From contig JAJZIR010000002.1 in the NCBI GenBank assembly GCA_021810505.1, positions 1 to 64,000 of the forward strand: a stretch of 64,000 nt of DNA, written 5' to 3'. Positions 46,393-49,139 of the stretch are shown here, piece by piece. Numbering within the stretch: the first letter of the stretch is position 1; each line of letters opens with the position of its first letter. Below the pieces are notes generated by a model, which saw nothing but the letters and a program-made list of their open reading frames with translations, was not told the DNA's origin and did no database searches. The translations under genes were made by a program, and so were the position numbers. The stretch is from a bacterium (lineage in GTDB: Bacteria; Deinococcota; Deinococci; Deinococcales; Deinococcaceae).

Positions 46393-47445
46393 GTGCGCAG
46401 CCTAGATTTTAGCCTGCCGACCATCACTGCCCTGCTGCTGGTGATCGGCCTGGTAGCGGTCAGCTCCGCGGCCTCGCCTTTTGACTTCCATAAGCAGGTC
46501 TTGGGGGTTCTGGCTGGAGGAGCGCTCTGGTACGGGACTTGGAAGCTGGGTAAGGAACGGATCTACCGGCTGGCCCCCTGGCTCTACGGCCTCTCCATCC
46601 TGCTGTTGGGTGCGACCCTGGCGGTCGGTCGGGTGGTCAACGGCTCCCGCAGCTGGCTGGCGGTGGGGCCCTTGCAGTTCCAGCCCATCGAGATCGCCAA
46701 ACTCGGCCTCATCCTGCTGCTCGCTGCGGTGATGCGGGGGGGATACCGGGGCCTGAAGTCTTACCTCTTGCCCTTGGCGGTGTTCTTGCCGGTCCTGGCC
46801 CTGGTGATCAAGAACGACTTCGGCGGCGGGACAGTCATGGTGGCTTTGTTCCTGGCCATGCTGTTTGTCTGGAGGATGCCCTGGTGGCACCTGGCCCTGG
46901 TCATCGCCATCGGGGCTGTCGCTTTCCCCTTGGCGGTCTTCCCCCATCTGGCACCTTACCAGAAGGCTAGGCTGACCATTTTCATGGATCCGCTCAAGCA
47001 TCCGCTGACCACCGGCTACCAGACCCTGCAGTCGATGATCGCCATCGGATCCGGTGGCGTCTCCGGCAAGGGGTACGCCAAGGGTACCCAGGTCCACGAT
47101 GGCTTCGTCTACAGCCAGTTCAGCGACTTCATCTTCGCCAGCTGGTCTGAGGAGCAGGGCTTCATCGGGGCGACGCTGCTCCTCCTGCTGTTCGGAGCGC
47201 TGTTCTGGAGGATGATCAGTATGGCCAACCAGTGCCCCCAGCTGCGCGACCAACTGGTCATCACCGGTATCCTGAGCCAGCTGGCCGCCCAGGTGATCGA
47301 GAATGTCAGCGCCTCGATGTCCCTGTTGCCGCTCACTGGGATCACCCTGCCGCTAATCTCCTACGGCCTCAGCTCGCTGCTGTCCATCCTGCTGGCGTTA
47401 GCGGTAGCTTACGTGGTCTACCACCACCGCGTCGAGGAGACCTGA
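46393..47445 (+). CDS. rodA: SEDS peptidoglycan glycosyltransferase RodA
   Basis: RodA (350 residues, about ten helices) polymerises glycan strands in the elongation complex. NGSRSWLAVGPLQFQPIEIAK, the catalytic-Asp loop VIKNDFGGGTVM, SQFSDFIFASWSEEQGFIG and TGITLPLISYGLSSL are SEDS signatures; the shorter length and sequence favour RodA over FtsW. It starts with GTG directly behind a -10 box. Its 3' end overlaps the convergent hflX gene by 28 nt. Confidence 0.93.
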   Translation: MRSLDFSLPTITALLLVIGLVAVSSAASPFDFHKQVLGVLAGGALWYGTWKLGKERIYRLAPWLYGLSILLLGATLAVGRVVNGSRSWLAVGPLQFQPIEIAKLGLILLLAAVMRGGYRGLKSYLLPLAVFLPVLALVIKNDFGGGTVMVALFLAMLFVWRMPWWHLALVIAIGAVAFPLAVFPHLAPYQKARLTIFMDPLKHPLTTGYQTLQSMIAIGSGGVSGKGYAKGTQVHDGFVYSQFSDFIFASWSEEQGFIGATLLLLLFGALFWRMISMANQCPQLRDQLVITGILSQLAAQVIENVSASMSLLPLTGITLPLISYGLSSLLSILLALAVAYVVYHHRVEET

Positions 47446-49139
47446 TTCGCTCCAGCTCCCAGATCCGGATCCTTATCCTGGAGTGCGGCGGAGATGGCCG
47501 CGCGGACGGCGTCCAGGCTGGCCGGATCCTTCATCGAGACCGGTAGGGCTTGGAAGTGGGTCAGGGTATCTTCCCAGCTCCCGGCTACTTGCCCCCCTTC
47601 CCTGGCATCCCACTTGCTGAACAGGATCAGCTCTCGCTTCTCCGGAATTCCCTGCTGGCTCAGGATGCTGCGTACCGCCCGGAGCCGCTCGGCCCAGCCA
47701 CTGGACGAGACATCTACTAGGTGCAGCAGCAGATCGGAGCTGGCGATCTCTTCCAAAGTCGCCTGGAAAGCCCAGCGTAACGGGGAGGGGAGCTCCTGGA
47801 TGAACCCTACCGTGTCCGAATAGATGACTGGGCCGGTTCCCAGCAGCCAGCCCCGGCGGCTGGTCGGGCGCAGGGTGGCGAAGAGCTGGTTCTCGGCCAA
47901 GACGGCCCGCTGGGGGCCTAGGTGCCCCAAGGCGTTGAGCAGCGTGCTCTTGCCGGCGTTGGTGTAACCGATGATCGAGATGACTGGCTCTGCGCTGCGA
48001 CTTCGCCCCCTACGCCGCTCTCCTCGCTGCGCGCTCAACTCGTCCACTTGCCGCTGCAGCTCGGCGATGCGGCGATTGATCCGGCGCCGGTCGATCTCCA
48101 GCTTGGTCTCGCCGGGTCCCCTGGCGCCGATCCCGCCGCCCTGGCGCGAGAGGGCGGTGCCTTTGCCCAGCAGCCTGGGTAGCAGGTAGCGCAGCTGGGC
48201 CAACTCCACCTGTAGCTGACTCTCTTTGCCCTGGGCATGCTGGGCGAAGATATCCAAGATCAGCTGGGTGCGGTCCAGGACGCGTAGCCGGGTAGCCTCC
48301 TCAAGGTCGCGGGCTTGGGTGGGACTCAGATCCTGCCCGACGATCAGCAGGTCAGCGTCTTGGTGGTAGGCCAGGCTGGTCAGCTCTTCTAACCGCCCCC
48401 TGCCGAAAGCCGAGCTGCGATCCCGCAGCTCGGCCAGCTGGCTACCTACCACCTCAGCGCCGGCTGTCCTGGCCAGCTCGGCCAGCTCAGCTAGGCGCTC
48501 CTCGCCTTCCCCCCGGTGCTCCGGCTGCAGCAGGACTGCCCGGGCAGACGAGCCACTCCCACTCCCCCCCCTCGTCAGCTTGCGCGCGACCAGCTCCTGC
48601 TCCAGGGCTCGCAGCCGCCCGCCCAGGTCGAACTGCTCCGCCTCGAGGACCGACATGGGCGGGTAGATCCGCCAGTCCTCCTCGTCGGCGTTGGAGCCGG
48701 GTGGTGTCAGCTGGGCCAGGTGGACTACCCCCGGTTGGTCGCCTGCGACCTCCACGGCCACGATCGCATCCAGGCGCTTGAGAAAAAGAGTCGACAGATC
48801 TGCTCGGCTTAGCTTGCCTCTCCTGGGGTGGCTGTGCAGCAAAGTGAGGCCGGCCAGCCGCTGCCGGTCGGAACGATCGGGGATCTCCACCTCGAATGCG
48901 TCACAGACGCTGACCCTGCTGACCCGCCCCCGCCGGTCCAGGAGCAGGCTGATCTCGCGGTGCAGCTCGCCGCTGAGCTCGGCCAATTCCCTGGCCAGCT
49001 CGCGGCTCAGCAGAGCCCCCGGGGTCAGGCGCCTGCGATAGAGGTAGCTGAGTTTCTTGACCTGCAGGCTCTTCAGCCCGCCGAGGTTGCCGAATACGGT
49101 ATCGATGGTAGGTCGTCCTCCGTGCTCCCATGGTAGCAC
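47418..49139 (-). CDS. hflX: HflX GTPase with N-terminal JAMM/RadC-like extension
   Basis: HflX binds 50S subunits and splits stalled ribosomes. The core (about residues 200-573) has GGGIGARGPGETKLEIDRRR, G1 IGYTNAGKSTLLNALG, G3 SDTVGFIQELP and G4 as LFSKWD. The N-terminal 190 residues are extra: REISLLLDRRGRVSRV and LLHSHPRRGKLSRADL show E62, H102, H104, S111 and D114 in the spacing of JAMM/RadC metal sites. The start is unsure: GTG 49139 is the only standard one, yet GGAGG lies inside its first codons, before a possible ATC start at 49106. Confidence 0.9.
   Translation of the reverse strand: MLPWEHGGRPTIDTVFGNLGGLKSLQVKKLSYLYRRRLTPGALLSRELARELAELSGELHREISLLLDRRGRVSRVSVCDAFEVEIPDRSDRQRLAGLTLLHSHPRRGKLSRADLSTLFLKRLDAIVAVEVAGDQPGVVHLAQLTPPGSNADEEDWRIYPPMSVLEAEQFDLGGRLRALEQELVARKLTRGGSGSGSSARAVLLQPEHRGEGEERLAELAELARTAGAEVVGSQLAELRDRSSAFGRGRLEELTSLAYHQDADLLIVGQDLSPTQARDLEEATRLRVLDRTQLILDIFAQHAQGKESQLQVELAQLRYLLPRLLGKGTALSRQGGGIGARGPGETKLEIDRRRINRRIAELQRQVDELSAQRGERRRGRSRSAEPVISIIGYTNAGKSTLLNALGHLGPQRAVLAENQLFATLRPTSRRGWLLGTGPVIYSDTVGFIQELPSPLRWAFQATLEEIASSDLLLHLVDVSSSGWAERLRAVRSILSQQGIPEKRELILFSKWDAREGGQVAGSWEDTLTHFQALPVSMKDPASLDAVRAAISAALQDKDPDLGAGANQVSSTRWW

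Follow-up and report, generated by a model that had tools for sequence, protein, structure and literature searches.

Here we report that the N-terminal ~180 residues of a long-form HflX protein from Deinococcota are a conserved, previously unrecognised domain without a family name, and we lean slightly towards reading it as a divergent JAB/MPN domain that binds metal, is probably no peptidase and would serve HflX as a docking or regulatory module. HflX splits ribosomes, rescues those that have stalled and adds to macrolide resistance. The gene analysed (Table 1) is carried by the window, the whole 64,000-nucleotide stretch of DNA under study, and is the only hflX copy in its genome; its membership of the HflX family follows from the TIGR03156 score, which lies above a cut-off of 216.75. 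Residues are numbered from the GTG of the mechanically called open reading frame, and 11 should be subtracted if the ATC discussed below is the start. Pfam, NCBIfam and PHROGs gave zero matches for the N-terminal ~180-190 residues, and sequence searches of the PDB with single and profile queries for the domain returned nothing relevant. In the open-access literature searched, no description was found of HflX with a JAMM/JAB domain or with a non-AUG start.

Table 1. Coordinates of the long-form hflX gene, its start region and its predicted protein elements in the window.
Feature	Position	Strand	Basis or remarks
hflX, long form	47418..49106	(-)	TIGR03156 (376.8 bits), with Pfam GTP-bdg_N, GTP-bdg_M and MMR_HSR1
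hflX, mechanical ORF	47418-49139	(-)	Upstream end at GTG 49139; 573 aa
Probable true start codon, ATC	49104..49106	(-)	Residue 12 of the mechanical ORF; lines up with the ATC/ATA/ATT/ACG/TTG/GTG starts of relatives
Shine-Dalgarno sequence GGAGG	49117..49121	(-)	10 nt 5' of the ATC
JAB/MPN-like N-terminal domain (predicted) and linker helix	48570..49106	(-)	Residues 12-190; AlphaFold, Foldseek, homologues in four phyla
Helix alpha1, before the first core strand	48963..49004	(-)	Residues 46-59; DSSP of the AlphaFold model
R61, E62 and beta hairpin	48906..48959	(-)	Strands 63-68 and 72-78; R61 faces the JAMM Glu in hhalign
H102-S103-H104, predicted metal ligands	48828..48836	(-)	End of a core strand; H102 in 62/63 and H104 in 63/63 Deinococcota
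S111-x-x-D114, with D114 as third predicted metal ligand	48798..48809	(-)	Start of the next helix (112-120 in the model)
HflX core: ND1, helical domain, GTPase	47484..48536	(-)	Residues 202-552; TIGR03156

The domain is present in 57 of 61 near relatives of the window, and its profile matched 106 of 111 genomes of Deinococcota, 177 of 189 of Myxococcota, 148 of 198 of Desulfobacterota and 82 of 194 of Cyanobacteria, with three additional sequences from Hydrogenedentota; group labels beyond the window's own phylum are those of the seed loci. It was found in open frames of HflX length, the few short frames being apparently cut by contig ends, and this front domain of the long form is common to at least four bacterial phyla. 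It is absent from 112 of the 194 cyanobacterial genomes, and many of the listed ones among these are small (about 2 Mb).

The initial annotation had proposed a JAMM-like and RadC-like metal site in this extension, and the predicted fold bears out the JAMM part, as two independent AlphaFold models both match JAMM/MPN proteins first. Model 1, built on the window's domain with 58 sequences (pLDDT 92.1, pTM 0.88), runs in the order helix, hairpin, HxH strand, D114-bearing helix and two further strands. Its Foldseek search against the PDB is led by CSN5 (E 5e-4) and SRU_2040 (probability 0.99), followed by more CSN5, AfJAMM, proteasome-lid and AMSH chains, and its matches among viral models include JAB, MPN, RadC-like and metalloprotease entries. 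Model 2 (pLDDT 89.1) was built on a Desulfobacterota core, using an alignment of Myxococcota, Desulfobacterota and Hydrogenedentota sequences only, and places SRU_2040, PfJAMM1 and AfJAMM near the top at E-values that are all 0.001 or higher. Over both models the best PDB matches include CSN5, SRU_2040, AfJAMM, PfJAMM1, Rpn11 and AMSH. The models support a JAB-like fold, with a superposition that is loose and a kinship to JAMM that is distant, since the TM-scores of the JAMM matches are 0.27-0.51. Cytidine deaminases also match model 2, and the JAMM fold itself resembles that of cytidine deaminase (PMC300881), so that a deaminase-like alpha/beta sandwich of unrelated function, carrying HxH by coincidence, would agree with these matches and with the weak sequence similarity to JAMM. 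However, JAMM/MPN proteins top both PDB searches, and the HxH and the D occupy corresponding places, at a strand end and a helix start, and we regard this reading as very unlikely. A JAB/MPN-fold domain is the preferred assignment, and its fusion to HflX may date from early in the history of bacteria.

All five residues named in the initial annotation are present in the open reading frame (E62 at 48956-48954, H102 at 48836-48834, H104 at 48830-48828, S111 at 48809-48807 and D114 at 48800-48798). As in JAMM proteins, the window has the HxH ligand pair and an Asp on the following helix, and the spacing is HxH-x6-S-x2-D, with x6 in nearly all aligned relatives, against HS/THx7SxxD in the published JAMM motif (PMC300881). 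By itself, the motif string is weak evidence: HxHx5-8[ST]xxD has 4 matches in the six-frame open reading frames of the window and 28 in 455,740 residues of other open reading frames, and arises in 0.25% of the shuffled versions of residues 1-195. Conservation was scored on 252 domain sequences, comprising the best matches and an even draw of weaker ones. H102, H104 and D114 are all intact in 170 of the 252, and their conservation in 168 of the 184 relatives outside Cyanobacteria shows that HxH and D exceed chance. By group, the triad is intact in 62/63 Deinococcota, 50/60 Myxococcota, 53/58 Desulfobacterota and 3/3 Hydrogenedentota, both histidines being conserved in Myxococcota and Desulfobacterota as well; D114 is kept in 62/63, 58/60 and 58/58 sequences of Deinococcota, Myxococcota and Desulfobacterota, respectively, and position 111 is Ser or Thr in most relatives. 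The two strand histidines and the Asp of the next helix, judged from this conservation and the predicted fold, would form a metal site, and the domain would bind a divalent metal, probably zinc.

The remaining part of the claimed signature, the catalytic Glu, did not hold up among relatives, as only 12 of the 252 sequences have Glu at position 62 (7/63 Deinococcota, 2/60 Myxococcota, 1/58 Desulfobacterota and 2/68 Cyanobacteria). Myxococcota and Desulfobacterota have Gln at this position, and most Deinococcota and Cyanobacteria have Pro; E62 itself occurs in the family of the window, in one sister family and in five scattered others, and the tree requires six changes to account for it. In an hhalign comparison of the domain with a profile of stand-alone JAMM proteins from the same order, the HxH was in register and the JAMM Glu stood opposite R61, a pairing taken from the printed alignment. 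The score was 22.9 against 19.7 for the best of 60 column shuffles, with a probability of 7.7% and no Pfam match; the register of R61 and E62 read from so weak an alignment could be shifted by one residue. Position 61 holds Arg in 118/118 sequences from Myxococcota and Desulfobacterota, and Arg or Lys in 57/63 of those from Deinococcota. At the family level a catalytic Glu is mostly lacking at the start of the strand that follows alpha1, and in the window itself either R61 or E62 may take this place. The alternative E58 was rejected as the catalytic residue, because cyanobacterial domains that have lost the ligands still keep it, and it is not linked to the site. A stand-alone JAMM protein with a classical HSHPQGPAALSARD motif (PF14464, E 5.9e-12) is encoded separately in the genome, at L170 (G000:C22:38722-38997).

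These residues bear directly on the proposal in the initial annotation that the domain is a metal-dependent peptidase or isopeptidase. For the family this activity is not supported, given the lack of a conserved E62 and the pairing of the JAMM Glu with R61, and the basic residue at 61 disfavours peptidase chemistry. An active JAMM-type metalloprotease or isopeptidase, cleaving a protein on ribosomes that have stalled or been split, could still be imagined in the window's lineage, where the JAMM-like predicted fold is accompanied by the full residue set, both in the window and in five out of six close relatives with E62, with HxHP being classical for JAMM. Two sequences that branch early in the cyanobacterial clade also combine E62 with HxHP, and the full set may be ancestral, although the tree is unrooted. 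The sixth close relative with E62 (L087), however, lacks both H102 and D114, E62 is missing in about 95% of the relatives that retain the metal ligands, and both the alignment of R61 to the JAMM Glu and the x6 spacing instead of x7 speak against the idea. We consider an active protease quite unlikely; peptidase activity would be possible only in the few E62 lineages, the window included. Under the preferred reading of a metal-binding, docking domain, the catalytic Glu would be mostly replaced, by Arg followed by Gln, Pro or Glu, and the domain would most likely cut no peptide because that Glu is mostly absent.

The likeness to RadC likewise did not survive comparison. The domain shares with RadC (PF04002) an H-x-H-P motif and a strand pattern that is similar by eye, but it has no PF04002 match, and its hhalign similarity to RadC falls under the best column shuffle, a match obtained with Deinococcota sequences only being out of register; kinship with RadC was rejected. 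The JAMM and RadC profiles themselves align with 93% probability. A search of 31 genomes of the window's order found no RadC. The domain resembles the JAMM/MPN+ proteins (AfJAMM, PfJAMM1, CSN5 and Prok-JAB, PF14464) in its predicted fold, in the HxH at a strand end, in the Asp on the next helix and in the Ser/Thr three residues ahead of that Asp, and differs from them in lacking a conserved catalytic Glu, with probably Arg instead, in an HxH-Ser spacing one residue shorter, in its fusion to HflX and in having no Pfam match.

The MPN-minus domains, among them eIF3h, Rpn8, CSN6 and Prp8 Jab1, offer another comparison, as they too have a JAB fold, are probably inactive as peptidases and lie within large RNA or protein machines; the metal ligands are usually absent from them and are kept in most HflX domains. 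A metal-free scaffold of this type, whose HxH and D would make contacts to rRNA, to the nucleotide site or to the HflX core, would fit the cyanobacterial domains, which persist although the triad is broken in 66 of 68 (intact in 2/68). It would also fit R69, G71, P87 and D124, which are invariant or nearly so whether the triad is present or lost, and the eIF3h-type chain and EMC subunit found among the weak fold matches of model 2. HxH and D could indeed be kept for a reason other than metal. Yet exactly H, H and D, arranged as in JAMM, are near-invariant across three phyla and are lost jointly in cyanobacteria, and a metal-free domain appears unlikely for the family. With a metal-binding domain as the favoured reading, a docking or regulatory module would lie immediately ahead of ND1, which displaces 23S helix 69. 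In oxygenic cyanobacteria the ligands are lost and the domain is retained, as would fit a scaffold role. In mycobacteria, the N-terminal extension of HflX, likewise N-terminal to ND1, touches uL16 and the H69-H71 junction and favours the disordering of rRNA; it has 39-58 residues and is not described as a folded domain, against ~180 residues here (PMC12493154). This precedent and the position next to ND1 make an effect of the domain on splitting a sensible thing to test first. The HflX protein of Deinococcus radiodurans (long or short form) increases after mitomycin C in both the wild type and an irrE mutant (PMC8533742).

The start codons of these genes are a stronger lead than the catalytic claim. 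Protein conservation among relatives begins at one codon, corresponding in the window to ATC 49106-49104 with GGAGG at 49121-49117, and the window's hflX probably starts there and not at GTG 49139; this GTG lies 11 codons upstream, so the ATC is not forced in the window itself. The best-placed starts of 171 long-form genes were ATC in 71, ATA in 25, ATT in 22, ACG in 7 and CTG in 1, with the canonical TTG in 25, GTG in 13 and ATG in only 7; two codons either way were allowed, and single assignments are noisy, mainly in Myxococcota. In 84 of the 171, no ATG, GTG or TTG occurs in the stretch from the in-frame stop to the second codon after the start (10 Deinococcota, 30 Desulfobacterota, 33 Cyanobacteria, 8 Myxococcota and 3 Hydrogenedentota), and the next canonical codon in long-form genes is often tens of codons inside the domain; at L252 and L260 a stop codon immediately precedes the ATT or ATC. 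Most of the 84 outside Cyanobacteria have a Shine-Dalgarno match, and many cyanobacterial genes have no clear one. This start-codon pattern was recorded over the window (49104-49121, minus strand), L083-L141, L002-L043 and L172-L261. Among controls, a canonical start was available in 29/29 stand-alone JAMM and 20/20 radC genes (0/49 without). As a positive control, infC of the same order often begins with ATA, ATC or ATT; the infC of the window's genome reads TAG-ATA, and the ATA of a Thermus-like infC corresponds to Met1 of IF3 in the solved structure. One relative (G006) has an IF3 nearly identical to that in PDB 5lmn, which we take to be from Thermus thermophilus.

Short-form hflX genes have an upstream canonical codon in 34 of 38, and the E. 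coli hflX start is TTG. Five short-form loci (L045, L046, L047, L051 and L058; several Syntrophomonas and one Chloroflexi) show a Shine-Dalgarno sequence followed by ATT, ATA or ATC, and the non-canonical start may extend beyond the long form. At L097, L105, L108, L119, L128 and other Thermus-like loci, a TATACT box stands about 9 nt before the TTG, a position suggesting that the hflX mRNA has no leader or almost none. Nine loci of Nostoc-like cyanobacteria (L206, L208, L211, L212, L216, L217, L223, L227 and L228) share a conserved GGGGGGCCA...TGGTC...AAACGCCT-ATA arrangement, with a small inverted repeat beside the ATA start that is a possible regulatory hairpin.

Starts of the AUU/AUC/AUA class are described for infC, pcnB and sigR (GTC in sigR), (PMC5472188, PMC1780047), and those of infC and sigR are repressed by IF3 (PMC5472188); hflX is not described there, and its feature spans several phyla. 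By analogy, IF3 may control hflX. We tentatively propose, as a serious possibility that falls somewhat short of being probable, that hflX is a second widely conserved gene, alongside infC, with an IF3-discriminated AUU/AUC/AUA start, such that this splitting factor would go up when free IF3 falls, and that its long form carries a metal-binding JAB domain for sensing or docking during splitting. A metal-binding JAB fold would link a bacterial ribosome factor to a fold used by eIF3 and the proteasome, and it offers a concrete test of the role of the long-form domain. The non-AUG start, if true, would be a regulatory wire between IF3 and HflX, two subunit-splitting or anti-association factors, and many annotated hflX starts are probably wrong.
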